This document shows, piece after piece, positions 3,367 through 19,802 of a stretch of DNA of 22,105 nucleotides; within the stretch, counting starts at the first letter, position 1; each line of letters starts with the position of its first letter. The stretch spans positions 1-22,105 of IMG/VR virus record IMGVR_UViG_3300022934_000224, one strand, 5' to 3'. The notes under the pieces were generated by a model. It was not told the origin of the DNA. It made no database searches and worked only from the letters and a program-made list of their open reading frames with translations. The translations under genes and the position numbers were made by a program. This DNA comes from a virus.

Positions 3367-3395
3367 ATATTACCTGTACTAATATCTATTCACAA
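3367..3395 (-). promoter_or_regulatory. Promoter-operator copy 1 (17-bp palindrome) before the 93-aa gene
   Basis: Read on the minus strand, a -35-like TTGTGA (3390-3395) lies 17 bp before a -10-like TAATAT (3367-3372). The palindrome TATTAGTACAGGTAATA (3368-3384) fills the spacer and the -10. It differs by one base from copy 4 at 15229-15245, which lies on the other strand, so the element keeps its direction relative to the gene it serves. The -35 box lies in the last codons of the HNH gene. This would allow the terminase genes to be transcribed separately from the HNH gene. Confidence 0.65.
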
Positions 3396-3862
3396 GAGTG
3401 ATCATGAATAGTCTTGATCCACCACCAAAACATATCTGTCGCTAATGTATGCCGCATGATGTTTATTCTGTACGCGACTAACCGGACATTTTCTCGCGAA
3501 TAGCCCTGATCATTGTTTATACGATCAATTGACGCGTTGAACTCTTTGGCACCTGAGCCATCTAGGTGATGTGTTAACGCAACGCCCGATACCGCGCATT
3601 TTCCGCCCTGCTCGTCCCAAATATCAATTAAGTCTTCAGGAACCAAGTTCCAGGGATGGGTCTTTTTACGCGTGGACTTTAGCTTTGTATGCAGGTTTCT
3701 GAGATACGCCTCATGCGACTGCTGCATGACCATGTGACGTTTACGCTGCTTATGCTTCATGCGGCATGGTTCACATTGCATGCGCCATTTTCCGCTTGGG
3801 TATTGTTCGAATTCACTGATCGGTAGCTCTTCGTTACAGAGCGTACACATTTGTTTTTTCAC
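3386..3862 (-). CDS. HNH/endonuclease VII-like protein with N-terminal zinc ribbon
   Basis: This 158-aa protein has a zinc-ribbon-like N-terminus (C6, C9, C30, C33) and a basic linker (residues 36-70). Its C-terminal half carries GGKCAVSG, SIDRINNDQGYSRENVRLV (111-129) and RIN (132-134). That order matches HNH/recombination-endonuclease folds, where a GYS-x-ENV turn and an Asn before the final helix are typical. The usual first His of the HNH triad is not obvious at S111-I112-D113, so activity is uncertain. Small HNH proteins next to terminases often assist genome packaging in tailed phages, and the position here fits. The start is GTG at 3862 with a G-rich ribosome site; ATG at 3850 is an alternative. 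It could instead be a free-standing homing-type endonuclease. Confidence 0.75.
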   Translation of the reverse strand: MKKQMCTLCNEELPISEFEQYPSGKWRMQCEPCRMKHKQRKRHMVMQQSHEAYLRNLHTKLKSTRKKTHPWNLVPEDLIDIWDEQGGKCAVSGVALTHHLDGSGAKEFNASIDRINNDQGYSRENVRLVAYRINIMRHTLATDMFWWWIKTIHDHSCE

Positions 3863-4131
3863 ATACAGCCCCCCAGCTGCCTGTTACACAAGATAGGGCG
3901 GCGAAAAATTTTTACTAGAAAAAAATTTGAAAAAATTTATCTGAATCACTCACTCATTGTCTCCCCTGCCGGATAGTTACGCGCCCGTTTCCCCCGTTTT
4001 CCGACTTGGAACCTTGTTTCGCACCATGTCGCATGAACCTTGTCTGGCAGTAACCCCCTCAACCACTCGTTCCTCGCGCTTGACCGTTCGTGTTTGTGAG
4101 CAATGACGCTCGCTTACTTTGGAGATACACC
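3863..4131. other. Divergent intergenic gap, AT-rich, between leftward and rightward genes
   Basis: This 269-base stretch has no gene. The part at 3905-3945 is made of A and T tracts, likely bent or easily melted DNA. The rest is pyrimidine-rich and then contains a possible -35 TTGACC at 4080-4085 without a good -10 at the usual spacing. It separates the packaging operon from the small-gene operon, so promoters for both directions should lie here, but I cannot place them firmly. No copy of the 17-bp palindrome is present. Confidence 0.5.
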
Positions 4132-4431
4132 ATGAATCAGTACCTTGAGCTACACCCAGCGGACAACGCCATCGTCTGCACCGAAGACCTTTTCGTTCTC
4201 ATCGAGGAGGACGAGCACTCTGCCGGTCACACTGGATACACCTACGCCTTCGCTGATACCAAAGCAGGCATCAGAGCACTTGAGCATGTTTCAGGACTCA
4301 TGGAGCAGGAAGACTCCTACGACCTCGAACTGTGGATTGACGCGATGGCTGACGTGTTTGGCGTCGACATGGTCTGGGCACCTATTGTCCACAACGACCG
4401 CATCACATTTAACGCTGTAGCTTGGGCATAA
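4132..4431 (+). CDS. Hypothetical acidic 99-aa protein, first rightward gene
   Basis: I do not recognise this protein. It is acidic (many Asp and Glu), soluble, with no Cys pairs apart from a single Cys and no membrane segment. The start at ATG 4132 follows TTGGAGAT at 4119-4126; a longer frame from 4090 lacks a ribosome site. It is the first gene of a rightward operon, followed 11 bases later by a small Cys-rich gene, with GGAG just before each start. First genes of phage early operons often act on the host, but nothing in the sequence shows a function. Confidence 0.75.
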   Translation: MNQYLELHPADNAIVCTEDLFVLIEEDEHSAGHTGYTYAFADTKAGIRALEHVSGLMEQEDSYDLELWIDAMADVFGVDMVWAPIVHNDRITFNAVAWA

Positions 4432-4442
4432 GGAGACCCACC

Positions 4443-4574
4443 ATGGAACAGTACGACCTGCCATTCAACAAGTTCGAAGACCCGACCGTAGAACTCGACT
4501 TCGAGCCTAAAGAAATCTACTGCGAAGTCTGTGACTGCCACTACGACGAAGACGACCCCTGTCCCTTCCACTAA
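4443..4574 (+). CDS. 43-aa acidic Cys-rich mini-protein, likely zinc-binding
   Basis: This short gene has a Shine-Dalgarno sequence (AAGGAG at 4430-4435) placed before the ATG at 4443, and its stop is followed directly by the next AAGGAG. The C-terminal third reads YCEVCDCHYDEDDPCPFH, with four Cys and two His that could hold one zinc ion. The protein is otherwise strongly acidic. No function can be named. Its position in a tight operon and its metal-ligand pattern support a real product despite its size. Confidence 0.65.
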   Translation: MEQYDLPFNKFEDPTVELDFEPKEIYCEVCDCHYDEDDPCPFH

Positions 4575-4586
4575 GGAGATCTACCC

Positions 4587-4664
4587 ATGAGACCTATCGT
4601 TTTTGAATCTTTCGTTCTTTTGTTTGCCGCCGCTTTCCCGTGGCTTCTCATGACTTTTATTTAG
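4587..4664 (+). CDS. 25-aa single-span membrane microprotein
   Basis: An AAGGAG at 4573-4578 precedes the ATG at 4587, and a TTTAGGAG overlaps the stop and serves the next gene. The 25 residues are almost wholly hydrophobic, with one membrane span (about residues 3-24) and a lone Arg at position 2. The spacing to both neighbours matches the regular pattern of the operon, which is the main reason to accept so short a gene. Such peptides could act on the host membrane, but this is inference. Confidence 0.5.
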   Translation: MRPIVFESFVLLFAAAFPWLLMTFI

Positions 4665-4676
4665 GAGACTTATCCC

Positions 4677-4952
4677 ATGTTTCAGAATCTTAAGCTCTAC
4701 GCGCTTGCGGTTAGCAGTCTCATCGTCAGCGCCATCATGTTCACCATCACCATCACCGGTTTCTGCGCTCTCGTTGGCAGTACCTCTATTCTCACCATCA
4801 TCGCTGGCTTCTTCTTTCATATCATTATCACCACCGTCGCAATGACTAACCTCAACGCCCTTCTCGCCGCAATGGCACGTCACGCACAAACCAGCGCACT
4901 GGATCACGCAGAAGCACTCAACAACCAATGGCTCAAGGAGCATGCATCATGA
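4677..4952 (+). CDS. Hypothetical 91-aa membrane protein
   Basis: Two hydrophobic segments are visible, about residues 7-31 and 36-57, rich in Ile, Thr and Ala, followed by a soluble helical C-terminus from residue 60 on that ends in a basic stretch. The ribosome site is TTAGGAG at 4661-4667. The stop overlaps the next ATG (ATGA at 4949-4952). I do not recognise a family. It follows a single-span microprotein, so this operon seems to deliver several membrane products, possibly for host takeover. A holin is conceivable, but no endolysin is present nearby. Confidence 0.7.
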   Translation: MFQNLKLYALAVSSLIVSAIMFTITITGFCALVGSTSILTIIAGFFFHIIITTVAMTNLNALLAAMARHAQTSALDHAEALNNQWLKEHAS

Positions 4953-5179
4953 AATTCACAGCACTCGACCGTCTCATGGATCAAGCTAAACCCACCGCTT
5001 TATCCCTCATCGACAAGAGCAAGCCCTATGCATCGAAAGCATGGCAATACACCAAGGAGAACCCCGGCGACGTACTCCTCGGTTTACTCACCTTCTCAGC
5101 ATTGGACATCGCTGACTCACTCGACAACATCGAAGAAATGGATGGATATCTGTTCATCGATCAGGACAGGGGGGCGTAA
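4949..5179 (+). CDS. Hypothetical 76-aa protein
   Basis: The ATG at 4949 overlaps the upstream stop and has AAGGAG at 4935-4940. The first half is basic and helical. A short apolar stretch (GDVLLGLLTFSALDIADSL, residues 47-65) precedes an acidic end, so it may touch the membrane, but this segment is marginal for a true span. No family is recognised. It closes the first rightward operon, and a short G-C hairpin with a T-run begins within its last codons. Confidence 0.7.
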   Translation: MKFTALDRLMDQAKPTALSLIDKSKPYASKAWQYTKENPGDVLLGLLTFSALDIADSLDNIEEMDGYLFIDQDRGA

Positions 5180-5189
5180 GCTCCCTTTT
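5170..5189 (+). terminator. Possible weak intrinsic terminator
   Basis: A six-base stem GGGGGC/GCTCCC (5170-5175 with 5180-5185, one G-T pair) closes a GTAA loop and is followed by four T. It overlaps the stop codon of the preceding gene. The short T-run makes it weak. Its position at the edge of the gene-free repeat region fits an operon end. Confidence 0.45.
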
Positions 5190-5212
5190 CTACCGAGGGC
5201 CAGGAGGTTTGC

Positions 5213-5581
5213 GTGCCACAGTGCATGATGCATGAGCCATTTTTCATGTTTCATCGGGCATGTGACGTGCTACAACGAGCTTGTGCCACCTGTGCCAGTG
5301 CTGTGCCGGCTTTGTGCCACCTTTGTGCCACCTCTGGCACAGGGCTAACCTGTTGTTTTTAATGTCCTTTTGTTAATTTTGTGCCATTTTGTGCCACCTG
5401 TGCCACCTTTTTGCCATTTTCACCTACGGGTTTTTTGACGCAAAAACGAAATTCGACACGCTTTTTTTACAGTGTGAGTAAAACTCAATTTTGCTGGCAC
5501 AAGTGGCACATCGTTGTTTTTATTGACTTTTTTCTCTCTTTTGCTGGCACATTGCTGGCACATGCTGGCACATGCTGGCAC
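5213..5581. repeat. Iteron cluster of GTGCCA/TGGCAC hexamers; candidate replication origin
   Basis: The 523-base gap between 5180 and 5702 holds no convincing gene. Exact GTGCCA occurs at 5213, 5283, 5292, 5314, 5325, 5381, 5391 and 5400, with near copies at 5303 and 5411. Its reverse complement TGGCAC occurs at 5335, 5495, 5504, 5545, 5556, 5566 and 5576. Within each group the spacing is 9 to 11 bp, about one helical turn, so a bound protein would sit on one face. The two orientations form left and right arms around AT-rich DNA (5342-5380 and 5411-5540). Phased iterons beside an AT-rich tract are typical of replication origins and partition sites. No initiator gene lies beside it, so the role is inferred. 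Confidence 0.7.
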
Positions 5582-5593
5582 ATGTAGCTAATT

Positions 5594-5620
5594 GCTGTGA
5601 TCTTCGTCGATCTCCACAGC
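5594..5620. repeat. Inverted repeat beside the iteron cluster
   Basis: GCTGTG at 5594-5599 is mirrored by CACAGC at 5615-5620, with two GATC copies in the loop. It lies 13 bases after the last iteron and about 80 bases before the next gene, in a pyrimidine-rich stretch. It could be part of an origin or a protein site; there is no T-run, so a terminator is unlikely. Confidence 0.4.
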
Positions 5621-5702
5621 GATTTTCACCTTTTTCACCCATTTTTTACCTGTATCGATATACACCACTGTACATCGATCCATGAATCAGGAGCCATGAA
5701 CC

Positions 5703-5933
5703 ATGACTAAACAATACCGACTCAACGCAACTTGCTACGACTGCGGCGAAGAAAACCACGTTGTCGTTGCCAGCCATGAGCTTGATCGATACCAAATCGG
5801 TGAGCTTGTTCAGAAAGTCTGGCCCGATACCGACACTTGGTTCCGCGAAGTCATCGTTGGCTGGCGAACTGGTGTGTACCAGTGCAAGTCCTGCCACGAA
5901 GCGTTTCTCGAAGACATAGGAGAGGAGGCATAA
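5703..5933 (+). CDS. 76-aa zinc-ribbon protein
   Basis: Two CxxC pairs (C11/C14 and C61/C64) bracket a 46-residue region, the layout of a structural zinc ribbon. The middle is acidic with a WPDTDTWF stretch. The ATG at 5703 has CAGGAG at 5688-5693; the two ATG codons just before it are out of frame and stop within a few codons. It is the first gene after the iteron region, so a nucleic-acid role is possible but not shown. The next gene starts three bases after the stop, with GGAGG in the end of this gene. Confidence 0.75.
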   Translation: MTKQYRLNATCYDCGEENHVVVASHELDRYQIGELVQKVWPDTDTWFREVIVGWRTGVYQCKSCHEAFLEDIGEEA

Positions 5934-5936
5934 ACC

Positions 5937-6200
5937 ATGACCCATGTATTCAGCAACACGCAGATACCACTGCGCCTTAACACTCCCGAAGATTTTTGTC
6001 TTGACGACTCAGTGCATCTCTTTTTGCAGGCAACACGCAGAAACGAGTGCCCGTTGGCAGATTTTCTTGACGAGCGAGAGCGTCCCTTCGTCTACCACAC
6101 GGAGCATGACGGCGACATCGTCTTCAACGAACCAACGACTGCTCGTTCCTCGCAGCCGGTCGTTACCAATGAGCAGTGCGCGGACTTTACTAGGACATAG
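5937..6200 (+). CDS. Hypothetical 87-aa protein
   Basis: I do not recognise this protein. It is soluble and acidic in the centre, with no domain motif. The ATG at 5937 is preceded by AGGAGAGGAGG at 5919-5929, one of the strongest ribosome sites in the window. A promoter-operator copy begins ten bases after its stop, so it ends a short two-gene unit. An overlapping frame at 5944 is a shadow. Confidence 0.65.
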   Translation: MTHVFSNTQIPLRLNTPEDFCLDDSVHLFLQATRRNECPLADFLDERERPFVYHTEHDGDIVFNEPTTARSSQPVVTNEQCADFTRT

Positions 6201-6209
6201 TCTGTTGCA

Positions 6210-6238
6210 TTGCTTCCCATTATTAGCTGTACTAACAA
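6210..6238 (+). promoter_or_regulatory. Promoter-operator copy 2 before the 220-aa gene at 6252
   Basis: TTGCTT at 6210-6215 lies 17 bp before TAACAA at 6233-6238. The palindrome TATTAGCTGTACTAACA covers 6221-6237. AAGGAG and the start codon at 6252 follow directly, leaving a leader of only a few bases. Confidence 0.6.
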
Positions 6239-6251
6239 TCAAGGAGTTCTT

Positions 6252-6914
6252 ATGAACATGAACGATTCATTCATCCCCGGTGCCCTCAACAAGCTGTGTG
6301 CGGGTAAGTCCAACACCTACTACACCAACTTGGCTAACTACATCGCTGGGTTTACCAACTCAGAGACCCCCATCGATGTGGCCTATGCCAAAGCCGCGTT
6401 TGAGTGCAACTCTGACAGAGACACGGCTCCGTTCCACGTCTTTGCTGTCATCAACCACATGCAGACCCTCATGGATCGCATCATGTGGAACGCGCGCAGG
6501 CTCAAAGTTGACCTCGACCGTGCCGCTCAGCAGGAAGAGGAGTCTGGTGGCATCTACGGTGTTGACCTTGCTCAGACCGCTATCGACGAGACAGGTGTCA
6601 ATCTGCCCGTGGATCGCATCAAGGACGCCGTTCAGTCTGACTACGAGCTGTTGTTCCAGACTCAGACGCTGATCATGAACGAGTTGGACATCGACGGTGA
6701 GGCGCTCGACATCGACCTGTTGTTCTTCAACCCGTCCAGCTACGACGAGACATCAGACTCGTGGGTCCACGCCACGCCAGCTGATACCTACGACGCGGCT
6801 ATGCAGGTCATGGACGAGATCGTTGCAGAACTCAAGGCCAACGAGACCAAGACCAAGCTCGCTGGCTTCATGGCAAATCGCGCCAAGATGCTCGACGCGC
6901 GACTAGCCGCGTAG
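6252..6914 (+). CDS. Hypothetical 220-aa protein under its own promoter
   Basis: I do not recognise this family. The protein is acidic and mostly helical, without Cys-rich or membrane parts; a block at about residues 70-140 has long amphipathic helices. The start at ATG 6252 is fixed by AAGGAG at 6241-6246; the longer frame from 6210 would run through the promoter. It stands alone between promoter-operator copy 2 and a strong terminator at 6926, so it is a single-gene transcription unit. Codon choice is rich in C-ending codons, as in the neighbouring small genes. Independent, strong expression signals suggest an abundant early protein. Confidence 0.8.
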   Translation: MNMNDSFIPGALNKLCAGKSNTYYTNLANYIAGFTNSETPIDVAYAKAAFECNSDRDTAPFHVFAVINHMQTLMDRIMWNARRLKVDLDRAAQQEEESGGIYGVDLAQTAIDETGVNLPVDRIKDAVQSDYELLFQTQTLIMNELDIDGEALDIDLLFFNPSSYDETSDSWVHATPADTYDAAMQVMDEIVAELKANETKTKLAGFMANRAKMLDARLAA

Positions 6915-6925
6915 TGTTACTCCAC

Positions 6926-6959
6926 CCCCGGTGCCACCTTTTGGCATCGGGGTTTTTTT
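6926..6959 (+). terminator. Strong intrinsic terminator
   Basis: CCCCGGTGCC (6926-6935) pairs with GGCATCGGGG (6943-6952), a ten-base stem with one G-T pair, around a seven-base loop. Seven T follow at 6953-6959. It ends the single-gene unit at 6252-6914. Confidence 0.9.
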
Positions 6960-7010
6960 ATTTTTGCCTCCGGCGGGGGAGTTAGCGTGCCGGACCATGG
7001 AGCATGAAGC

Positions 7011-7190
7011 ATGAACCGATGTGAGTATGAAGAACGACGTAGAGACGTTTATAAGCGCGCGTTCATTGAAAACAAAGAGTCAATGTCTCCCGAAGAATGG
7101 AGAAGCTGGATGCTTTTCTTAACAAACAAGTGGGAGCGGCGAAGTAGGAGAGTCGCATCAGACTGTAAATCTGACCCGAAAGGTGAGTAG
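7011..7190 (+). CDS. Small 59-aa ORF whose 3' end runs through the tRNA gene
   Basis: The ATG at 7011 has GGAG at 6998-7001. The first 40 residues look like a real protein: charged, helical, with SPEEWRSWMLFLTNKW around residues 26-41. From codon 41 on the frame lies inside tRNA-Tyr and ends at 7190 in the tRNA variable/T-arm part. Either a tRNA was inserted into the end of an existing gene and the last 19 codons are tRNA-derived, or the ORF is chance. No family is recognised. The ribosome site and protein-like first part favour a real but remodelled gene. Confidence 0.45.
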   Translation: MNRCEYEERRRDVYKRAFIENKESMSPEEWRSWMLFLTNKWERRSRRVASDCKSDPKGE

Positions 7191-7214
7191 GTTCGATTCC
7201 TACCTCCCACACCA
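7130..7214 (+). tRNA. tRNA-Tyr (anticodon GTA), complete with encoded CCA
   Basis: All arms can be folded. The acceptor is GTGGGAG/CTCCCAC, the D stem GCGA/TCGC, and the anticodon stem TCAGA/TCTGA with loop CTGTAAA (anticodon at 7165-7167). A long variable arm of about 12 bases is present, as in bacterial tRNA-Tyr, and the T arm is GTAGG-TTCGATT-CCTAC. The discriminator A and an encoded CCA (7212-7214) finish the molecule. The G34 anticodon reads both Tyr codons. Phages carry tRNAs to support their own translation or to replace cleaved host tRNAs. No integrase is present, so use as an attachment site is not supported here. Confidence 0.95.
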
Positions 7215-7231
7215 AATATAAGGCACGAAGC

Positions 7232-7378
7232 ATGGCACTGACACTGCAAGCAAAAAACATTCAAAGCTTCCTTAACTGGGTAGAGAACTGCCCATTTGAT
7301 TACGCCATCTCATCGATGCAGGGCGGCTTTATCCACGTCAAGTTTTTCATTCGGGAAACGGAAGGCATTGATCAATGA
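7232..7378 (+). CDS. Hypothetical 48-aa protein
   Basis: The ATG at 7232 is preceded by a weak AAGGCACG at 7220-7227, and the stop overlaps the next start (ATGA at 7375-7378). The protein has an amphipathic N-terminus and a probable beta stretch GGFIHVKFFIRE (residues 31-42). No family is recognised. The ATGA overlap with a neighbour of the same type supports coding. Confidence 0.55.
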   Translation: MALTLQAKNIQSFLNWVENCPFDYAISSMQGGFIHVKFFIRETEGIDQ

Positions 7379-7533
7379 CTTATTACAGAGTCTACGTAAA
7401 AGAAACCAACTTAGTCGTTTACTACGTGGATGCTGATAGCCCTGAAGAAGCCGAAGAAATTTACTGGGACGACTTCAGCTACAAGTACCTCAACTGCGAC
7501 GAGTCCGAAGTAATCGAAGTGGAGGAACAATGA
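7375..7533 (+). CDS. 52-aa acidic protein, possible DpnD/PcfM-like fold
   Basis: The gene overlaps both neighbours by ATGA. The sequence begins MTYYRVYVKET, then a V-x-AD-SPEEAEE block and an acidic end with EVIEVEE. This order of a beta strand, an EEA helix and a final strand resembles small DpnD/PcfM-like proteins, though the match is by eye only. The next gene has the same opening (M-x-YYR, then AD-x-x-DEA), so the two may be tandem relatives. Function unknown. Confidence 0.6.
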   Translation: MTYYRVYVKETNLVVYYVDADSPEEAEEIYWDDFSYKYLNCDESEVIEVEEQ

Positions 7534-7793
7534 ACTACTACCGATTTCACGGCCAGTTTATTACCGACAAGTTTATAGATGTCATTGCCGACAACTACGA
7601 CGAAGCTTTCCGTATTGCCGACAAACATATGCATGAGGCTGTAAGCGATCTGTTAATAACAGACAGGGGGTTAGATTTTTACGAACCAGATATCACTGTT
7701 ACTAACGCCGAAGACAACAAAGAACCCAGCACTGAATGGCCTATAGAGACCGTAGCTGATTGGGCTTTTACTTCAGAGGACTACCCACCATGA
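7530..7793 (+). CDS. 87-aa acidic protein, possible relative of the preceding gene
   Basis: ATGA overlaps tie this gene to both neighbours, and GGAGG at 7521-7525 serves its ATG. It begins MNYYRFHGQF and has an IADNYDEAFRIA helix, matching the preceding 52-aa product in layout. The C-terminus is acidic and Pro-rich. No function is known. It lies in a chain of small genes that carry no replication or structural motif. Confidence 0.7.
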   Translation: MNYYRFHGQFITDKFIDVIADNYDEAFRIADKHMHEAVSDLLITDRGLDFYEPDITVTNAEDNKEPSTEWPIETVADWAFTSEDYPP

Positions 7794-8197: not shown

Positions 8198-8417
8198 CGA
8201 TCAAGACCCCGAAATCACCATCGAATTCCAGCCTGACGGCGAGATGATGGAAATCATCAAAATCCTGCAAGAAGCACGCATTGAGCTAGAGCAAGCGTCT
8301 GACTCTCTTAATGCAGCCACCAAGACGGTGCTAAATGTTGTTCCCAAAACAGACAAACCCGATGGATTTATATTTGTGGCTGACGCGGAGGATGACAATG
8401 TCCAATCTGAACCATGA
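8190..8417 (+). CDS. Hypothetical acidic 75-aa protein
   Basis: The ATG at 8190 has AGGAG at 8178-8182 and overlaps the upstream stop by eight bases. The product is strongly acidic, with a helix of about 30 residues (MMEIIKILQEARIELEQASD region, residues 13-32) that could form a coiled coil. Nothing identifies a function. A longer frame from 7983 is internal to the previous gene. Confidence 0.65.
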   Translation: MSNDQDPEITIEFQPDGEMMEIIKILQEARIELEQASDSLNAATKTVLNVVPKTDKPDGFIFVADAEDDNVQSEP

Positions 8418-8583
8418 TCCATGGACCAAGCTGACTGATATGGCAGCAGCTCGCGTGGAAATGCTCGTCCGTTTCGAAAACAGGCGAGCTGTGCAGCAGT
8501 TCATCACCGAGCTGTGCAACAACACCGCCAACAAGCGGGATGTGTTGGTGAAGTTTCTAACCGATTCAAGCAAAAAGGAGTGA
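8398..8583 (+). CDS. Hypothetical 61-aa helical protein
   Basis: GGAGG at 8387-8391 sets the start at ATG 8398 rather than 8392 or the longer frame at 8335. The protein is helical, with an MAAARVEMLVRFENRRAVQQ stretch (residues 14-33), and ends SSKKE. It overlaps the preceding gene by 20 bases. The final codons contain AAAAAGGAG for the next gene. No family is recognised. Confidence 0.6.
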   Translation: MSNLNHDPWTKLTDMAAARVEMLVRFENRRAVQQFITELCNNTANKRDVLVKFLTDSSKKE

Positions 8584-8608
8584 CTTATGTTATTAGCGGG
8601 ACTAATTG
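8580..8608 (+). promoter_or_regulatory. Promoter-operator copy 7, overlapping a start codon
   Basis: GTGACT at 8580-8585 lies 17 bp before TAATTG at 8603-8608. The perfect palindrome ATTAG-CGGGA-CTAAT covers 8592-8606. The upstream half shares GTGACT and GTTATTAG with copy 4. Unlike the others it spans the ATG at 8587, so a bound protein might also affect the gene it overlaps. A transcript from it would begin inside that gene and serve the genes from 8889 on. Confidence 0.5.
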
Positions 8609-9346: not shown

Positions 9347-9356
9347 GAGGAACCGT

Positions 9357-9715: not shown

Positions 9716-9720
9716 GAGAC

Positions 9721-9909
9721 ATGATCAAAACCCGTCAAGAAATTATTTTGTGGTGCATGAAGCATCTGCAACATCACCTACTGCACACAGCAACCGACGC
9801 CGAACCCCGATTTTACATTCAGATAGACCCTGCGGAACTTACGCAGGTGCTGTCTGTTTTATCCAACGAGCAGTTCTCAAGAGGAGACACATATGAGCAT
9901 GACAATTAG
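9721..9909 (+). CDS. Hypothetical 62-aa protein
   Basis: ATAGGAGAC at 9713-9720 serves the ATG at 9721. The protein begins with a helix (IKTRQEIILWCMKHLQHHLL) and continues with a strand and helix up to LSVLSNEQF. It overlaps the AAA ATPase gene by 17 bases and carries that gene's AGAGGAG in its last codons. The tight link suggests co-translation with the ATPase, but the function is unknown. Confidence 0.65.
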   Translation: MIKTRQEIILWCMKHLQHHLLHTATDAEPRFYIQIDPAELTQVLSVLSNEQFSRGDTYEHDN

Positions 9910-10894
9910 ACCCAGCCAACTGCCTGCAGAAATAGCAGCATGCGCCACGGCTAATCTTTCCATGATGATCTGGGGTGCACCCGGTATCGGCAAATCCGAG
10001 ATGGTGTATCAATACGCCAAGTCACAGAACGCCAAGCTGTACGAAATCCGTGCCAACTTGTTTGACCCAGTCGACGTTCGCGGTGGTCTCAAAGTTGTCG
10101 AACAGGTAGATGGTTCGTACCGCACCCGATACGGCGTGCCTGAAGATTACCCTGATACCAACTATCCAGGTACTGTCGTGCTCTTTATCGACGACTTGAC
10201 ACACGCACCCAAAGCGACACAGAACGCATTGCTTCAGCTGCTATTAATGAAGCGCATCGGCACTTATGAATTACCAGCTAATACGATCATTATCGCTGCA
10301 GGTAACCGGACATACGACCGCGCTGGTGCTAACGACATGGGTCAAGCAGTTGCAGATCGCTTCGACCACTATACTGTCGAGCCACACATTGACGACTTCT
10401 GCGTGCACGCATACCAAATCGGTTGTGATCCGTCGATTCCGTCGTTTTTACGTTACCGACCTAATCTGCTACACGACGCAGATACGCAGGAAAAAGCGTT
10501 TCCAACACCCCGTAGCTGGATTCGACTCAACCAAAAGTTGCCACATCTTGCTGACGAGTTCCACGGCATTGCAGCCAGCATTGGCGACGGTGCAGCTGGT
10601 GAGTTCATTGCACACCGCAAGATTTTCCACGAGTTGCCTGACATTGATCAGATTATTCGCAGCCCCGGCAGTGTGCGTGTCCCAACGTCAGCATCTACTT
10701 TGTATGCCGTCGCTGGTGCTCTGTCTGCTCGTGCAAACCAGCAAGATATCAAGCCAATTGTGACGTACTTACGTCGTTTGCCGCCTGAGTATCAGGTTGT
10801 TGCAGTCAAAGACATCATCGGCAAAGACCGTTCACTTATTACCGACCCAGCTGTTCAAAGCTGGACTACCGATAACGCATCCATCGTATTCTAA
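9893..10894 (+). CDS. MoxR-type AAA+ ATPase
   Basis: This 333-aa protein has Walker A GAPGIGKS at residues 28-35, Walker B VVLFIDDL at 95-102 (DD in place of the more common DE), sensor 1 AAGN at 135-138 and an arginine-finger candidate R156 in ADRFDH. The layout is that of MoxR/AAA_5 ATPases, which act as hexameric chaperone-like remodelers, usually with a VWA-domain partner. That partner is present two genes downstream, with one unknown gene between. The start is ATG 9893 with AGAGGAG at 9880-9886. Such pairs are recurrent in bacteria and phages, but their targets in phages are not established. Family sure, target unknown. Confidence 0.88.
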   Translation: MSMTIRPSQLPAEIAACATANLSMMIWGAPGIGKSEMVYQYAKSQNAKLYEIRANLFDPVDVRGGLKVVEQVDGSYRTRYGVPEDYPDTNYPGTVVLFIDDLTHAPKATQNALLQLLLMKRIGTYELPANTIIIAAGNRTYDRAGANDMGQAVADRFDHYTVEPHIDDFCVHAYQIGCDPSIPSFLRYRPNLLHDADTQEKAFPTPRSWIRLNQKLPHLADEFHGIAASIGDGAAGEFIAHRKIFHELPDIDQIIRSPGSVRVPTSASTLYAVAGALSARANQQDIKPIVTYLRRLPPEYQVVAVKDIIGKDRSLITDPAVQSWTTDNASIVF

Positions 10895-10904
10895 GGAGAC
10901 CACT

Positions 10905-11567
10905 ATGGGTTCAGTAAGACTTACCAAAGATCGTCAAAACCGTATTCATCGCAAAGCTATTAAAGCATTTGAACTAGCCAATCCGCAGCCAATGCTTTCA
11001 GCAGAGATCAAAGATCTCATTTGGCAAGGTGCATACGGAGACCCTATCCAGGTTGCTTGTCGTCAATTTGTCGAAGACAACCGTACTGGATTAAAGGATC
11101 GTCGAATCCACGTCAGTCGCGTTGAAACTGACAGAGTCAATTACAAATTTCAACTTGACGGCAAAGAGTGTGGGATAGAGTTTCATTGGCCCACAGAAAG
11201 AAAGTTGTTTTGCGGGCGGAATAATTATTTACACGCTCTGCGCCGTAGCAGCCTTGGTGGTAACTCTGAGGAAGACAACGCCAAAATCGAAGAAGCAGTT
11301 AAAGACTGCGTAACACAACGCGATCAGTTAACAGAACGTTATAACAAGTTCTACAGTCAAACCGCAAAGCTTCTATCAGAATGCAACACACTCAAACAGC
11401 TGCTGGAATCGTGGCCTGCTGCAAAAGAGTTTGTTGACTCTGATGATATTCGTCAAATGCACGAGAAAATCACGCGCAAACAAGCTGCAAAACGACGCGT
11501 CGATACGTCAGGCGTCGACATTGACTCCCTAAACCAAGTAGTACTCACATCCAAACTGGTGGCATAG
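10905..11567 (+). CDS. Hypothetical 220-aa protein within the AAA/VWA cassette
   Basis: AAGGAG at 10893-10898 sets the start at ATG 10905, ten bases after the ATPase stop. The N-terminus is basic (RLTKDRQNRIHRKAI, residues 5-19). A probable beta region around 70-110 holds a lone ECGIEFHWP. From about residue 125 the protein is a long charged helix or coiled coil (DNAKIEEAVKDCVTQRDQLT onward) that ends basic. A phage family named Nmad5 (putative nucleotide-modification associated) opens in a similar way, but I cannot confirm that. The next gene begins two bases after its stop, so the three genes form one cassette and this protein may be the substrate, adaptor or a third subunit. Confidence 0.75.
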   Translation: MGSVRLTKDRQNRIHRKAIKAFELANPQPMLSAEIKDLIWQGAYGDPIQVACRQFVEDNRTGLKDRRIHVSRVETDRVNYKFQLDGKECGIEFHWPTERKLFCGRNNYLHALRRSSLGGNSEEDNAKIEEAVKDCVTQRDQLTERYNKFYSQTAKLLSECNTLKQLLESWPAAKEFVDSDDIRQMHEKITRKQAAKRRVDTSGVDIDSLNQVVLTSKLVA

Positions 11568-11568
11568 C

Positions 11569-12684
11569 ATGGAATATTCACCTACTTACAAAGCTGTCAC
11601 CAGCGCACGGTCGCAGCTTATCCTCAACGAGCCGTTTTTCGGCGTGCTCAGTCTCAAGCTAAAAATTCGTGAACTAGACGAATGCAAGACAGCATCTACT
11701 GATGGCACACACTTAGACTTCAACCCTAAATTTGTCGAAAAGCAGGACGCGTCGCAGCTATTAGGCCTCATTGCACACGAAGTACTGCACTGCGCTAACA
11801 CCCACATGACTCGCCGCAACGGACGTGATCCAGACCGTTGGAACATTGCGTGCGACCATGCGATTAACCACATTCTGCTCGACTGTGGTTTTGTGTTACC
11901 TGACGGGGGTTTACATGATCCGCAGTATCGCGACATGTCAGCCGAAGCAATCTACGAGTTGCTGCCCGAAGATGCAGGTGATCCATGTAAATGGGGCCAT
12001 GTAACAGATGCAGACAACAGTGCCATTGACGTTGATGCAGGTCAGCTCGAAGTTGATTGGACGCTTGCAGTCCAACAAGCTGCTGAAATTGCACGGCAAG
12101 CTGGCAAATTACCGGGAGCAATCGAACGTCTTGTTGACAAGTTAGGCAAAGCCACCATCGATTTTCGTGATCATCTGTGGCCTTTCTTTGCAGCGACAAC
12201 CAAAAACGACTTCACATGGCGACGCCCGCACCGTGCTTATATCAGCGAAGACGAATATTTTCCGTCAATGTATGACGAAGGACCGGGCACATATGTTGTT
12301 GCCATGGACACATCTGGGTCGACTCACAGACAGATCCACAAGTTTCTGTCAGAGATCGTTGCTATCCACAATGACATGCGTCCCGAGCGTATGGTGTTTA
12401 TCCAATGTGACACTCAAGTAGACGAAGCACGCATTGTTGATGTGACTGCAGACGAAGAGCTAACCCAAGACATTCTCAACGTGGGCGGCGGTGGTGGTAC
12501 GCTGTTTCAGCCTGTCTTTGACTGGGTAACCGATCAACACATCGAACCGGAAGGCATGGTCTTTTTTACAGATTTGTGCCCTGCCGATGAGTTTCCAGAC
12601 GAACCACCCTACCCTGTTATTTGGGTTTCCACTGACGCAAGTGAGGAAGCGCCGTGGGGAATTACCACTTATTTGTTGCACTAA
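11569..12684 (+). CDS. Metallopeptidase-like / VWA domain protein (DUF2201 type), MoxR partner
   Basis: The N-terminal half of this 371-aa protein carries HEVLH at residues 70-74, a zinc-peptidase HExxH motif, followed by WNIACDHAINHIL (91-103), which supplies further ligands as in this family. The C-terminal half is a VWA-like domain with the MIDAS motif DTSGS at 247-251, the T311 site after GGGGG, and FFTD ending at D335. The order metallopeptidase-VWA is that of DUF2201-type proteins found beside MoxR ATPases. The likely role is to recruit a target through VWA to the ATPase and perhaps cleave it; the target is unknown. A promoter-operator copy begins inside its final codons and continues past the stop. 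Confidence 0.88.
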   Translation: MEYSPTYKAVTSARSQLILNEPFFGVLSLKLKIRELDECKTASTDGTHLDFNPKFVEKQDASQLLGLIAHEVLHCANTHMTRRNGRDPDRWNIACDHAINHILLDCGFVLPDGGLHDPQYRDMSAEAIYELLPEDAGDPCKWGHVTDADNSAIDVDAGQLEVDWTLAVQQAAEIARQAGKLPGAIERLVDKLGKATIDFRDHLWPFFAATTKNDFTWRRPHRAYISEDEYFPSMYDEGPGTYVVAMDTSGSTHRQIHKFLSEIVAIHNDMRPERMVFIQCDTQVDEARIVDVTADEELTQDILNVGGGGGTLFQPVFDWVTDQHIEPEGMVFFTDLCPADEFPDEPPYPVIWVSTDASEEAPWGITTYLLH

Positions 12685-12704
12685 ATAATTAGTGGGGCTA
12701 ATAT
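12676..12704 (+). promoter_or_regulatory. Promoter-operator copy 3 before the polymerase operon
   Basis: TTGCAC at 12676-12681 lies 17 bp before TAATAT at 12699-12704. The perfect palindrome ATTAG-TGGGG-CTAAT covers 12688-12702. The first gene starts at 12728, and DNA polymerase and the CsrA-like gene follow in the same unit. Confidence 0.65.
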
Positions 12705-12727
12705 CGAAATGCACTGGGGGCAAAAGA

Positions 12728-15045: not shown

Positions 15046-15048
15046 TGC

Positions 15049-15225
15049 ATGTCCCGACTCGTGTTAACACAAAAGACCGCCGACAAGATCACTTTGAAAA
15101 AAGAAGATGAAGATATTGCTGTCATCTCTGTAGGAAAAATAGATCGAAACCAAGTTCGTTTAACTTTTGAAGCAGACCCATCGGTTCGGATAATTCGGCA
15201 CAAATCACCCAAAAAAAGTGACTAA
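15049..15225 (+). CDS. CsrA/RsmA-like RNA-binding protein (58 aa)
   Basis: The translated product opens RLVLTQKT and continues through a beta-rich middle to NQVRLTFEAD and VRIIRHK, which lines up along its whole length with CsrA (LILTRR, NQVRIGV, VHREE). CsrA dimers bind GGA motifs in mRNA leaders and repress or stabilise transcripts. The key C-terminal arginine (E. coli R44) is kept as R50 and the N-terminal R7 is K9, but R6 is replaced by Q8. Four to five residues are inserted after strand 1, and the usual C-terminal helix is shortened to a basic tail. The gene lies three bases after polymerase with no clear Shine-Dalgarno sequence, so coupling is likely. Alignment was done by eye. Confidence 0.72.
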   Translation: MSRLVLTQKTADKITLKKEDEDIAVISVGKIDRNQVRLTFEADPSVRIIRHKSPKKSD

Positions 15226-15246
15226 CGTTATTAGTCCAGGTAATAT
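15218..15246 (+). promoter_or_regulatory. Promoter-operator copy 4 before the primase-helicase gene
   Basis: GTGACT at 15218-15223 lies 17 bp before TAATAT at 15241-15246; the palindrome TATTAGTCCAGGTAATA covers 15229-15245. The -35 overlaps the last codons of the CsrA-like gene. TTTAGGAG follows immediately and the start codon is at 15263. Confidence 0.68.
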
Positions 15247-15262
15247 TTAGGAGACTACCTGC

Positions 15263-17755
15263 ATGAAGCTTACATTTTTGGAGGCATCAAACGGCCTTCC
15301 ATTGAGTAAACACTTCACTTCAGAAAACAAATTTTGCCCTTACCCACACGTTAAGAACTTCAACAGTCATGAAATTCATGCAACATGCATCGACGACATG
15401 CATCAGGCTATTGTGGACCATGCCGCAAAAGGCCATTGCTTACTAAAAGGCAATCTACGTAAGCAATTGCAAGACGAAAGCCGTGCAGGTGCTACAGATC
15501 GCGCAGGCTTGACCCAGTTTTTAGCTCTCGACTTTGACGGCATCGCATTAGCAACACTTGACGCCTTATCATTTCGAGACATCGATGCCGCAAAACTGCA
15601 AACCATGGCTGAAGAACTGGTGGCATTGCTGCCTGCCGAGTTACAGCACATTAGCTACATTGCACAAGCGTCGTCGAGTCTAGGCTTAAAAAACAACACG
15701 GTCAGCATGCACATTTTTATGGTGTTAAAAGTGCCTATGCCACCTAAAACACTCAAGTTGTGGCTGCAGCAAGTCAATTACACACAAAAAGTGTTTGCTG
15801 ACCAAATCGAATTATCGGCTAACGGGCAGTCGCTCAAGTACGGCTTAGACACATCAGTCGCAGACAACAGCAAAATCTTGTTTATCGCGCCCCCATCTTT
15901 TGATAACCCTACTGTTGACCCGTTTAACGCACCAAATGATCGCATTATTTTGGTGAAGAAAAGCTACGATGCCTTTGATCTTGGCACTATGGCTCATCTT
16001 AGCGCACAGGCTATGTATGACAGATCGCAGAAGTTTAAAAACGAACTGCGTCAAAAAGCCGGATTGTCAAAGAAAGAAGAAAAAATAAAAGTCATGCAGG
16101 TCGATGATCGATCAGAAGAAGTCCTGCTCAACCCAGACAAAATGTCTATTAGCATTGCAGACATTAATACTGCGCCTTACATACGCTGCAACATCAACGG
16201 CGGCGACAGCAATGCTTACTGGTTCAACTTGAACAACCCAGTGTACATGTACAACTTTAAAGGCGAGCCAATCTTTTTGATTGAAAAAGCCGACGCTGAT
16301 TTTTATCAATCAATCTTCGACGTGTTTGAAGATGAAATGAAGAAAGAAGGTCGCCCTGAATACCCAGTTGTTTTTCGGGATTTTAACACCGACGTGTATT
16401 GGAACGGGTTGTTTGATCCAAACCTTAATGAATTTACTGAGCTAAAGCCTACATCCCCAAGCTCAATAGAAGGGTTTATGCGAACTCATGGACGCCCTTC
16501 TCCCGACTTTGTGCCAGATGCAAATATGGCATTTGATCCAACTCATGACGGCCCAAGTGTTGACTTGAAAACAATGCCATACCGGATCAACACGTTTCGA
16601 CGAACTATGTACATGCTCAACGCTATTCCACCAGAAGAGCCGCTGAGCATAGGATATGCTTGCAAAATACAAGAGCGGTGCCCGACTATCTATACACTGC
16701 TCAAACACATACTGGGGGATGGCGACCAAGAAGTAGAACGGTTTGTAAACTGGCTTGCTTACATTTATCAAACCAAAAAGAAAGCTAAGACAGCATGGGT
16801 ACTCAGCGGCGTACCCGGTACAGGTAAAGGTGTCTTTGCATACTCTGTTCTGCGACCGTTATTTAGCGAAGATCAAGCACCTGTCAAAACCCTAGAGAAC
16901 CTTGAAGAGCAGTTTAACTCTTACTTACAGACAGCTTTGTTATGTGTAGTTGATGAGTTTCACATGGCAAGCAGCGCTGCTATGCAAAAAGTTGCAAACA
17001 AACTCAAAAATCAGATTACTGAGCCAAGCGTCACCATTCGTAAGATGCGAAGCAATCAGGTAGAAGTACCTAACTACACAAGCTTTATCTTCTTAACAAA
17101 CCACGTTGACGCAGTTCGTATAGAACCAGGCGACAGGCGCTACAACATTGCCCCTCGTCAAGAAAGAAAGCTGATTGAAGCGCACCCAAAACTAGTATCT
17201 ACAATGGATAAACTTATACCCCGCGAGCTGCTGCATTTTGCGGGTGCGCTTGCGACGTTTAAATACGACGAAACACTTGTCCGTATGCCTATCGATAATG
17301 AAGCAAAAGTAATGATGAAAACAGCATCACTGTCTGTTTTCGAGGAGTACTGTGACGCCATTCGAGACGGCAACATTGAATACTTCAGTGAGGTATTGGA
17401 TATCAATGTTACTGATGTCATGAACAGCGGCGCTATTGACGCAGCGCAACGGAGTATCAAGCTATGGATATCCAACGCCCACCAAAAGGTACCTTCATTA
17501 ATACCCGTCGATCATTTTAGAAATGTATTCAATGTATACGCTGATGCAAAGTTGTCGTTGCATGAGTTTAGAAAACGGCTGCAGCGGAACAACATTACAA
17601 CCGTTCGTAAAAGACCTGCAAACGCCGACTCCTCATCGCATCCAATGCGAGGAGTAGAAGTCACTTGGCATACTGACGATCTTAAAATACAAAATTTAAT
17701 TAACGTTTATTTCAAAGAACAAGATTCTGTGCTCTTGCATAAACATAATAATTAG
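15263..17755 (+). CDS. PrimPol-SF3 helicase fusion (primase-helicase)
   Basis: This 830-aa protein should prime and unwind the phage DNA. The N-terminal part looks like an archaeo-eukaryotic primase: LALDFDG with DFD at residues 90-92, then SMH at 148-150 in a strand, then D196 in GLDTS. The C-terminal part is a superfamily 3/D5-like helicase of the DUF5906 type: Walker A GVPGTGKG (516-523), Walker B CVVDE (561-565), motif C FLTN (610-613) and an arginine pair (625-626). The middle (200-500) lacks familiar motifs. A similar primase-polymerase plus helicase layout is known from phage NrS-1. TTTAGGAG sets the ATG at 15263; the stop lies inside promoter-operator copy 5. The helicase call is firm, the primase call good. 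Confidence 0.88.
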   Translation: MKLTFLEASNGLPLSKHFTSENKFCPYPHVKNFNSHEIHATCIDDMHQAIVDHAAKGHCLLKGNLRKQLQDESRAGATDRAGLTQFLALDFDGIALATLDALSFRDIDAAKLQTMAEELVALLPAELQHISYIAQASSSLGLKNNTVSMHIFMVLKVPMPPKTLKLWLQQVNYTQKVFADQIELSANGQSLKYGLDTSVADNSKILFIAPPSFDNPTVDPFNAPNDRIILVKKSYDAFDLGTMAHLSAQAMYDRSQKFKNELRQKAGLSKKEEKIKVMQVDDRSEEVLLNPDKMSISIADINTAPYIRCNINGGDSNAYWFNLNNPVYMYNFKGEPIFLIEKADADFYQSIFDVFEDEMKKEGRPEYPVVFRDFNTDVYWNGLFDPNLNEFTELKPTSPSSIEGFMRTHGRPSPDFVPDANMAFDPTHDGPSVDLKTMPYRINTFRRTMYMLNAIPPEEPLSIGYACKIQERCPTIYTLLKHILGDGDQEVERFVNWLAYIYQTKKKAKTAWVLSGVPGTGKGVFAYSVLRPLFSEDQAPVKTLENLEEQFNSYLQTALLCVVDEFHMASSAAMQKVANKLKNQITEPSVTIRKMRSNQVEVPNYTSFIFLTNHVDAVRIEPGDRRYNIAPRQERKLIEAHPKLVSTMDKLIPRELLHFAGALATFKYDETLVRMPIDNEAKVMMKTASLSVFEEYCDAIRDGNIEYFSEVLDINVTDVMNSGAIDAAQRSIKLWISNAHQKVPSLIPVDHFRNVFNVYADAKLSLHEFRKRLQRNNITTVRKRPANADSSSHPMRGVEVTWHTDDLKIQNLINVYFKEQDSVLLHKHNN

Positions 17756-17767
17756 CTACACTAATAG
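17750..17767 (+). promoter_or_regulatory. Operator copy 5 before the nuclease gene
   Basis: The perfect palindrome ATTAG-CTACA-CTAAT (17751-17765) is flanked by A on both sides, and a -10-like TAATAG covers 17762-17767. No -35 box lies at 17 bp; TTGCAT at 17735-17740 is 21 bp away. It overlaps the primase-helicase stop and the next gene starts at 17790. Confidence 0.55.
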
Positions 17768-17789
17768 CTGCTAAACGGCTGGTATCAAT

Positions 17790-18542
17790 ATGAATTCTGT
17801 TATTACGCAAGACGCACGACCAGACGCAGATAGCCTCTTTATAGACAAAACTCCACTAGGACCAGTCACCGCTTGGTCTTACTCTGCGTTAAAAGTCTTT
17901 GAAGAGTGCCCCTATCGCACATTCCTATCGCGAGTAAAACGCATACCGGAGCCTTCTAGCCCGGCAGCTGACCGTGGTTCTCAAATACACCAAGAAGCCG
18001 AAGACTATGTTAACGGCACACTAGGCGAATTTCCTGACTCACTAAAGAAGTTTAAAGCTGAGTTTGAAGAGTTGCGCCATCTTTTTGCTGAGGCAAAAGT
18101 CGAGCTAGAAGGTGAATGGGCATTTACCGAAGAGTGGCAACCTTGTGGTTGGGTAGAGAACCGAACATGGGCACGCATCAAACTTGATGCACTAGTCCAT
18201 GATTCAGACACCAGCGCCCGTGTCATCGATTACAAAACGGGCAAAAAGTTTGGTAACGAAATTGGTCACTCACAGCAAGCGCTGCTTTACGCAATTGCGT
18301 CATTCATACGGTATTCGAATTTAGAATATGTGCAGACTGAGCTGTGGTACCTCGACCATGCTGAGACAACCAAGCAGTCATACACCCGCGCCGAAGCTAT
18401 GGCGTTTTTCCCCGGCTTTCATGCTCGTGCCACACGCATGACAAGCGAATTTGATTTTGAGCCAAAGCCATCAAAGTCGGCGTGCCGATGGTGCTCTTAC
18501 AGACAAGGTGACGATCCCGCATGTACATGGGGTGTCGAATAG
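17790..18542 (+). CDS. PD-(D/E)XK nuclease, Cas4/RecB-like, with probable Fe-S cluster
   Basis: This 250-aa protein has H67 in GSQIHQEAEDY, D133 in IKLDAL, and DYKTGKK with D147 and K149, then QALLYA (163-168), matching the RecB/Cas4-type exonuclease core. Four Cys, one at position 40 (EECPYR) and three at 232, 235 and 245 (CRWC then C), match the Fe-S staple of Cas4 and AddB. Such enzymes resect DNA ends in phage recombination and replication. No cas genes or repeats occur here, so a CRISPR role is not suggested. The start is ATG 17790; the ribosome site is weak. The gene is followed by a terminator. Confidence 0.88.
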   Translation: MNSVITQDARPDADSLFIDKTPLGPVTAWSYSALKVFEECPYRTFLSRVKRIPEPSSPAADRGSQIHQEAEDYVNGTLGEFPDSLKKFKAEFEELRHLFAEAKVELEGEWAFTEEWQPCGWVENRTWARIKLDALVHDSDTSARVIDYKTGKKFGNEIGHSQQALLYAIASFIRYSNLEYVQTELWYLDHAETTKQSYTRAEAMAFFPGFHARATRMTSEFDFEPKPSKSACRWCSYRQGDDPACTWGVE

Positions 18543-18587
18543 CCTGACCAGCTCCCTGACACGGGAGAACTCCTAAAAGTGGTCCTT

Positions 18588-18614
18588 GACCCTGCTTCGG
18601 CGGGGTCTTTTTTT
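18588..18614 (+). terminator. Strong intrinsic terminator
   Basis: GACCCTGC (18588-18595) pairs with GCGGGGTC (18600-18607) around a TTCG loop, which is unusually stable, and seven T follow. It ends the nuclease transcript. A small hairpin without T-run (18552-18567) precedes it. Confidence 0.92.
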
Positions 18615-18627
18615 ATGTGAGGCTGAT

Positions 18628-18801
18628 ATGAAACAGCTACTTCAAACGCTGCAATACGTTATTGCTGCGCTCGTTATTTTTACGCTTATGTATTTCACCT
18701 ATTTATTTATGGTTGGGCTGAGCGCATTCGTACTGCCTGTGTTCTTTCTTGCCGCAGTCGCAGTCGTTGTTTTTACAAGACACAACAAGGGGGATCAATG
18801 A
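18628..18801 (+). CDS. 57-aa two-span membrane protein
   Basis: Two hydrophobic spans lie at about residues 8-28 and 30-49, followed by a polar tail RHNKGDQ. The ATG at 18628 has a weak GAGG at 18619-18622; the longer frame from 18586 would run through the terminator. The stop overlaps the next ATG (ATGA at 18798-18801). Size and topology resemble small phage membrane proteins such as holins, but no lysis enzyme is nearby. No promoter was found between the terminator and this gene. Confidence 0.65.
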   Translation: MKQLLQTLQYVIAALVIFTLMYFTYLFMVGLSAFVLPVFFLAAVAVVVFTRHNKGDQ

Positions 18802-18968
18802 TTTGGTTATCAAGAATATTGACTGTTCTTGAAATATTTTTTCTGTTCAAAGCAATTGCGAAAGCAAGGAGAGAGCAAGAATGTCAACAGGACTCCTCGA
18901 CCGAGACGGATGCATCCCAGGATGTTTCTACACCAGAGACGACGGTACCACCATCGAATACAAACTGA
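18798..18968 (+). CDS. 56-aa protein with N-terminal membrane span, overlapping the next gene
   Basis: The ATG at 18798 overlaps the upstream stop and has AAGGGGG at 18787-18793. Residues 2-20 form a hydrophobic segment; a basic turn (KARR) follows and then a polar, Thr/Ser-rich tail with no Cys-lipobox. The tail is out of frame with the next gene, which starts at 18881, so 88 bases are read twice. The pair recalls nested Rz/Rz1-type genes, but the inner gene lacks a lipoprotein signal, so that is not claimed. Confidence 0.5.
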   Translation: MIWLSRILTVLEIFFLFKAIAKARREQECQQDSSTETDASQDVSTPETTVPPSNTN

Positions 18969-19195
18969 AGACAGATCCACCTGAAGCTGCTTTCTGGACA
19001 ACATACAAACTCAAACCCAGTCATATAAAAGTAGTTGGAAAATATGACCGCAAAACAAAATCTGCCTTAGCTAAGGAAATATGCGATGAAATCACTCGAC
19101 ACGAGCAGTCCAAACCCAAACCGTCGATTGAGGACAAAATACGTAAAAAGCGTCAAGCCGCCCGCCGACAACATGCTGAAGTCGGGGAGAAATAA
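18881..19195 (+). CDS. Hypothetical basic 104-aa protein
   Basis: AAGGAGAG at 18866-18873 serves the ATG at 18881. After DRDGCIPGCFYTRDDG the sequence becomes increasingly basic, with EDKIRKKRQAARRQHAE near the C-terminus, a likely nucleic-acid-binding helix. No family is recognised. It precedes and overlaps the gp88-like gene by 23 bases, so the two are probably co-translated. Confidence 0.65.
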   Translation: MSTGLLDRDGCIPGCFYTRDDGTTIEYKLKTDPPEAAFWTTYKLKPSHIKVVGKYDRKTKSALAKEICDEITRHEQSKPKPSIEDKIRKKRQAARRQHAEVGEK

Positions 19196-19784
19196 TAAAA
19201 AGCTAGGTAACTACATTACCAAAGGTCGCTGGAAAGGAATGCCCTTGTACTCACTGACTCTCGAAGAACGGACCAGCTGCCCATCTTACTGCGAGCAATG
19301 GGACAACTGTTACGGTAACAACATGCCGTTTGCGATCCGTTACGATCATACCCACCCAGATTTTCTACCACTACTTCGATCCCAGCTTGAAGCATTATCC
19401 ATGAAACATGAATCAGGTTTCGTGGTCCGGCTGCATGTACTGGGTGACTTTTACTGCAGAGAGTACGTTGCATGGTGGCGTTGCATGCTAAACAGCATCC
19501 CAAATCTGCATATTTATGGGTATACCCACCACCGTAGTTTTTCACAAATCGGCTATTCAATAGTCAAAATGAATCGAAAATATGAGGAGAGATGCCGTGT
19601 TCGCTTTTCGGACGATACTGCTACTTTATTTAGTACATCATGTGTTCAAGGAGGACCAGACGACTGGCATTTTGGACGCACCGATTTAGCCTGCCCTGAG
19701 CAAACTGGGCACGTAAAAAGCTGCGCCACTTGCACTATATGCTGGGAATCTCAGGACAAAAATGTTGTATTTTTCCAGCATTAA
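19173..19784 (+). CDS. Phage gp88-like protein (Cys-rich, unknown function)
   Basis: This 203-aa protein has the pattern LTLEERTSCPSYCEQWDNCY (residues 28-47), then VRLHVLGDFYCREYVAWW (85-102), then YGYTHHR (115-121) and a C-terminal cluster C174, C184, C187, C190. This matches a family known from mycobacteriophage gp88 and many other phages, with Cys in the N-terminal third, a GDF-x-x-x-EY block and a YT box. The eleven or so Cys suggest a metal or Fe-S centre. No biochemical role is established to my knowledge. ATG 19173 has no clear Shine-Dalgarno sequence and is coupled to the preceding gene; the longer frame from 19086 overlaps too far. Confidence 0.78.
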   Translation: MLKSGRNNKKLGNYITKGRWKGMPLYSLTLEERTSCPSYCEQWDNCYGNNMPFAIRYDHTHPDFLPLLRSQLEALSMKHESGFVVRLHVLGDFYCREYVAWWRCMLNSIPNLHIYGYTHHRSFSQIGYSIVKMNRKYEERCRVRFSDDTATLFSTSCVQGGPDDWHFGRTDLACPEQTGHVKSCATCTICWESQDKNVVFFQH

Positions 19785-19802
19785 TATTAGCATAGCTAAT
19801 AT
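19785..19802 (+). promoter_or_regulatory. Operator copy 6 before the SNF2 helicase operon
   Basis: TATTAGCATAGCTAATA at 19785-19801 is a perfect 12-base palindrome around five bases, with TAATAT at 19797-19802. No -35 box lies 17 bp upstream. It starts directly after the gp88-like stop; AGGAGG and a start codon follow at 19813-19825. Confidence 0.6.

Follow-up and report, generated by a model that had tools for sequence, protein, structure and literature searches.

Seven copies of a 17-bp palindrome, TATTAG-N5-CTAATA, occur in a 22-kb phage record from IMG/VR (IMGVR_UViG_3300022934_000224; 22,105 nt, referred to in full as the window). The data presented here make it very probable that these dyads are dispersed operators of the phage's own CI-type repressor, overlapping sigma70-type promoters of the early, replication and late units. 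The evidence that links the repressor with the motif is confined to co-occurrence and co-loss, and it is from this comparison of sequences that we infer repressor binding, repression and lysogeny. An initial annotation of the window had proposed a single regulator acting on packaging, early and replication units; that proposal is supported by the comparative evidence, namely conservation of the dyad arms and loss of the dyads together with the repressor. It had also reported no obvious repressor gene in the window, correctly, as the candidate gene is situated outside it, in an overlapping contig designated G001.

All seven copies lie where the initial annotation had placed them (Table 1). As it had described, the ten-base core, ATTAG-N5-CTAAT, is exact in the copies at 8591, 12687, 17750 and 19785 and has one mismatch in those at 3368, 6221 and 15229. 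When all 12 arm bases are considered, one copy (19785) is exact and each of the other six has a single mismatch. Order-2 Markov simulations (1,000 runs) yielded a mean of 0.017 TATTAG dyads at up to one mismatch and at most one site per run, compared with the seven observed. TATTAG was also the top half-site, with seven copies, among all 4,096 6-mer half-sites at a spacer of 5, the runner-up having three. A looser search of the window, allowing up to two mismatches in the ten-base core, returned 11 sites versus 7.5 expected, which is not above chance, and further weak copies in the window are therefore not to be counted. Six copies end 8–24 bases before a start codon, as had been claimed, and in each case the codon is ATG. 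The copy at 8591 falls within the first codons of an open reading frame (ORF) starting at 8587 and is the least certain of the seven.

A scan with a profile of the repressor gathered 82 loci from many phages (1.11 Mb), and the dyad is present in 77 of them. These loci contain 295 TATTAG dyads, versus 0, 0, 3, 0, 12 and 7 for six control half-sites. When exact palindromes with 6-bp arms and spacers of 2–8 were counted with no motif assumed, TATTAG with spacer 5 was the commonest (104 sites). Other frequent palindromes, ATTAGC and ATTAGT with spacer 3 and ATATTA with spacer 7, represent the TATTAG site in a shifted register, and the best palindrome out of register with TATTAG/spacer 5 had 16 sites. 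Records of at least 43 kb that carry the repressor have 2–18 sites (median 11), whereas those without it have 0–4 (Mann–Whitney p = 0.001, for records that are related to one another); among the latter, none is present in G030 or G013 and three or four in G026, G027 and G028. The dyads are spread over the genome, and one at the promoter of the major capsid gene lies beyond the window. At up to one mismatch the motif is absent from the isolates phiA008 and KPP25 (49 of 64 kb read), and no earlier report of it for this phage group was found in the literature searched.

The pair of records G025 and G030 provides the strongest single evidence for the operator reading, because promoter and overlying operator are separated there. 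The two are 89% identical in terminase, 91% in exonuclease and 92% in helicase. G025 has 18 sites, the repressor and an integrase; G030 covers the repressor locus yet has neither repressor nor integrase. None of the seven alignable G025 sites survives in G030, in flanks that are 78% identical. At the G030 terminase promoter TTGCGATTAAT is unchanged and both dyad arms are broken, while at the capsid promoter the TTGCAT -35 is kept and the dyad is lost. Between repressor-bearing phages, in contrast, dyads are kept in 5 of 6, 6 of 6 and 6 of 7 cases. Absence of conservation of the arms relative to their surroundings, which the initial annotation had named as a finding that would count against it, was not seen in the relatives: arm identity is 92–96% and flank identity 68–83% in pairs of repressor-bearing phages.

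These observations bear on two other explanations. The palindrome might itself be a promoter element for a phage-encoded or alternative sigma factor or polymerase, rather than an operator, as its right arm is a TAATAT -10 with a fixed -35 17 bp away. This is very unlikely, in view of the orthologous G030 promoters that keep the -35 and lose the dyad, of a left arm situated in the -35/-10 spacer, where a simple promoter does not need it, and of arms that are conserved almost equally and that repressor-less phages do without. Binding of the dyads by a host-encoded regulator, like CtrA in some alphaproteobacterial phages, would accord with the borrowing of host regulators by phages (PMC9437464), but is highly improbable, given that the dyad tracks the phage repressor gene, both having disappeared from one close relative. 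Host CtrA sites in particular were ruled out, the dyad differing from the CtrA consensus, TTAA-N7-TTAA.

The operators appear to be combined with directional promoters. A TTG- or GTG-type -35 had been reported exactly 17 bp before a TAATAT-like -10 in five copies, and it is present at 3368 (minus strand), 6221, 8591, 12687 and 15229. The nearest relative of the window phage, G002 (61 kb; polymerase 91% identical), has orthologous dyads. At that of operator 2, TATTAGCAGTACTAATC, it has TTGCAT at the same -11 offset despite an intervening indel, and its copy of operator 7 has TTGAGC at -11. In a set of 119 non-redundant sites, a TTG begins exactly 11 bp before the dyad on 59 occasions, compared with a mean of approximately 4.4 at other offsets, and is read as a -35 with a 17-bp spacer to the TAATAT -10 in the right arm of the dyad. 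The T that follows the dyad is conserved on the -10 side only (47 of 57), a one-sidedness that indicates a directional promoter overlaid on a symmetric operator. Direction agrees with that of the nearest gene for 49 orientable dyads and disagrees for 3, and 82 of the 119 sites lie outside called ORFs. TAATA does occur on both strands of each dyad, as would be expected of symmetric -10 elements that serve bidirectional transcription with no regulator. That explanation is barely credible: TTG or GTG -35 elements flank both sides of only 2 of the 119 sites, orientation is one-sided as just described, and the G/C at positions 6 and 6′ is conserved though a -10 does not need it. A scan for the sigma70 consensus gave 13 matches versus 23 in shuffles; the dyad promoters are therefore not strong consensus promoters.

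The overlap of contig G001 with the window starts at about base 1451 (60-mers taken at 1-kb intervals from base 2001 onwards match exactly), and the contig runs beyond the right end of the window. Past the repressor gene it encodes, in order, a DUF3310 protein, an excisionase-like HTH_17 protein and a tyrosine integrase. Because a CI-like repressor, an excisionase-like gene and a tyrosine integrase adjoin the window, its phage is, as judged from gene content, probably temperate. A look-up of lysogens in cellular genomes returned two contigs of metagenome-assembled genomes only; these may be phage contigs in bins, and no host or attB was therefore assigned.

Among solved structures, lambda CI is the best match both of the first 75 residues of the repressor (phmmer, single sequence, E value 9e-5) and of the repressor profile (hmmsearch, 1.9e-10), and Pfam HTH_3 is found in all 52 homologues. 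An AlphaFold2 model made with the 52 homologues has a predicted local distance difference test score (pLDDT) of 86, an earlier one from six sequences having been poor (pLDDT 56). It comprises a five-helix N-terminal domain and a beta C-terminal domain. Its top Foldseek matches are a lambda-186 hybrid repressor and lambda repressor, and alignment to the lambda N-terminal domain (3kz3) with VIA-align gave a Z score of 12.4. Residues Q27 and Q38, the counterparts of lambda Gln33 and Gln44 in the alignment, do not vary among the 52 homologues. In lambda these two residues read A at half-site base 2, and base 2 is A in 92–100% of the arms here, in every recognition-helix class. The same half-site is found in all of these specificity classes, and no covariation of specificity was seen among them.

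No S24 peptidase domain was found by Pfam in the 52 homologues, and RecA-stimulated self-cleavage is therefore probably not the route by which this predicted repressor is induced. Their C-terminal halves have no invariant Ser or Lys; the modelled beta domain was not fold-searched alone. The repressor gene is co-oriented with the early genes, and dispersed operators are present rather than a divergent cI/cro region with clustered ones. Just downstream of the gene, before the DUF3310 and excisionase-like genes, one or two operators are found in 34 of 37 loci. An upstream site considered as a means of autoregulation was rejected, as it occurs only in the window's own clade, has two mismatches and is coding.

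In the mechanism proposed here, each operator would cover the spacer and -10 of a sigma70-type promoter (TTGNNN, 17 bp, TAATAT), and a repressor dimer bound to it would block host RNA polymerase. This would shut the promoters of the terminase and capsid units, of the early and replication units and of the DUF3310-excisionase unit; the excisionase would be kept off by the operator that follows the repressor gene. Since operators are found at packaging, capsid, early, replication and excision promoters, one protein could silence the whole prophage, and it could also render the lysogen immune. A bolder version of this proposal is somewhat doubtful: that the one CI-type repressor directly shuts every unit, late structural promoters included, that lysogeny does without a layer of antitermination or late activation, and that relatives losing the repressor shed their operators, leaving a site-by-site record of the change from temperate to lytic life.

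Several points weigh against the proposed role of the dyads. Autoregulation, and the repressor's own promoter in the lysogen, are not accounted for by them, an operator being situated directly upstream of the repressor gene in just 5 of 37 loci. Window sites 17750 and 19785 have no clear -35 at the expected place, and in a second set of sites, around repressor genes, a single orienting TTG at -11 is present in only 53 of 234. The dyad is missing from L211 and L212, two loci whose repressor has the usual recognition helix, and the 57-kb repressor-bearing record G041 has only two sites. Conversely, the closely related G026, G027 and G028 lack the repressor and still have three or four. Moreover, the sites were counted in scans selected by the motif itself and in related records that lack phylogenetic independence, and for both reasons the p-values overstate the evidence.

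The same three records (L135-L140, L144-L146) also lack an integrase, and the genes preceded by their dyads include those for terminase, a GP88-like protein and exonuclease; these operator sets may be half decayed, or another regulator may be involved. Such retained sites, and the sites carried by late promoters, would also suit a protein that binds the dyads and, instead of acting as a lysogeny repressor, serves mainly to time the early-to-late switch or to activate transcription during lytic growth. That is unlikely, as a dyad over the -10 is in a repressing position, the repressor gene lies beside the integrase and excisionase-like genes, and in the relatives tested the integrase is missing where the repressor is.

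Table 1. Predicted operators, putative -35 elements and the candidate repressor gene. Positions are those of the window unless a locus is named.
Feature	Position	Strand	Remarks
Operator 1, TATTAGTACAGGTAATA (minus strand)	3368..3384	-	Start codon of first ORF of terminase region at 3359, 8 bases downstream; kept in G002, G020 and many terminase-related phages
Putative -35 of operator 1, TTGTGA	3390..3395	-	17 bp before TAATAT -10 overlapping operator 1; also in G002, G020 and others
Operator 2, TATTAGCTGTACTAACA	6221..6237	+	14 bases before ATG 6252
Putative -35 of operator 2, TTGCTT	6210..6215	+	
Candidate operator 3, TATTAGCGGGACTAATT	8591..8607	+	Inside first codons of ORF; at same place in G002 and G020, but sequence there also coding
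Putative -35 of operator 3, GTGACT	8580..8585	+	Conserved in G002, G020
Operator 4, AATTAGTGGGGCTAATA	12687..12703	+	24 bases before ATG 12728; orthologues in G002, G020
Putative -35 of operator 4, TTGCAC	12676..12681	+	
Operator 5, TATTAGTCCAGGTAATA	15229..15245	+	17 bases before primase/helicase-like gene 15263-17755; orthologues in G002, G020
Putative -35 of operator 5, GTGACT	15218..15223	+	
Operator 6, AATTAGCTACACTAATA	17750..17766	+	23 bases before PD-(D/E)XK exonuclease gene 17790-18542 (Pfam PDDEXK_1); orthologues in G002, G020
Operator 7, TATTAGCATAGCTAATA, perfect	19785..19801	+	21 bases before ATG 19823, which is followed by SNF2-like helicase gene 20008-21357; orthologues in G002, G020
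CI-type repressor, 196 amino acids	L018:4780-5370 (G001)	-	721 bp past right edge of window
Operator region downstream of repressor gene	L018:4299-4770 and homologous loci		

In the window, terminase and portal proteins are encoded on the minus strand, and early and replication functions on the plus strand; the latter include a family A polymerase, a DUF5906/VapE-like primase-helicase, a PD-(D/E)XK exonuclease and an SNF2-like helicase. Between the polymerase and primase genes lies a gene for a 58-amino-acid CsrA-family protein (15049-15225, plus strand; Pfam PF02599, E value 6e-8), predicted to be a phage-borne translation regulator; CsrA-related genes are found at the same place in G002, G020, G025 and G028. 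A MoxR-like AAA ATPase gene is followed, one gene later, by one for a DUF2201 metallopeptidase/VWA protein (9893-12684, plus strand). This pair, unusual for a phage early region, has homologues in G002, G020, G025, G028 and G030. A tRNA-Tyr (GTA) gene (7130-7214, plus strand) overlaps small ORFs of the early region, and a strong intrinsic-terminator-like hairpin of 11 pairs with a seven-T run (6926-6952, plus strand) comes after an ORF ending at 6914.

For a large group of phages that are uncultured and known from little besides metagenomes, these results offer a signature of lysogeny, in which repressor, operator and regulon could be read from sequence. The G025/G030 pair represents a natural experiment on operator decay after a phage turns lytic, and the pairs of operator and recognition helix enlarge the lambda CI specificity data set.

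The DNA-binding domain of the repressor has its best match, in sequence and predicted fold, in lambda CI, and like the lambda CI operators those proposed here are 17-bp palindromes with a central base (TATTAGYNNNRCTAATA). The lambda operator half-site, TATCACC, shares TAT-N-A with the half-site of this group. Half-site positions 4 and 6, however, are T and G here and C and C in lambda, and at the positions of lambda Ser45 and Asn55 the alignment has Gly/Ser and Thr. The operators are dispersed over the genome, whereas those of lambda form two clustered triplets, and Pfam gave no sign of a cleavable S24 domain in the repressor. The CI protein of phage 186 may also be similar, in its C-terminal domain: over the whole length of the model, Foldseek ranks the lambda-186 hybrid repressor 7jvt first (E value 6e-7), but the template modelling (TM) score of that match is only 0.45, with 13–14% identity.

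Symmetric repeats at many promoters are a feature shared with the Streptomyces phage phiC31, whose repressor has conserved symmetric inverted repeats at many early promoters. In P1, the C1 repressor has 22 asymmetric 17-bp operators over the genome (PMC8546580); the system described here would likewise consist of one repressor and many 17-bp operators genome-wide, recognized here by motif, although the P1 operator (ATTGCTCTAATAAATTT) is asymmetric and the dyads are palindromic. The master repressor MrpR of SPbeta acts on a repeated element, SPBRE, at about ten promoters (PMC10516654). One motif is similarly repeated at promoters in the present group, up to 18 times per genome, but MrpR is recombinase-derived and its motif is 15 bp long. 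Cluster A mycobacteriophages have as many as 30 repressor sites (stoperators) per genome (PMC6550527); these lack symmetry, lie mainly in one orientation and halt elongation (PMC9283540, PMC6550527), in contrast to the palindromic, promoter-overlapping and largely intergenic sites found here. The dyad system would join the known dispersed-operator repressors, those of P1 (C1), phiC31 and SPbeta, with a DNA-binding domain of the lambda type.

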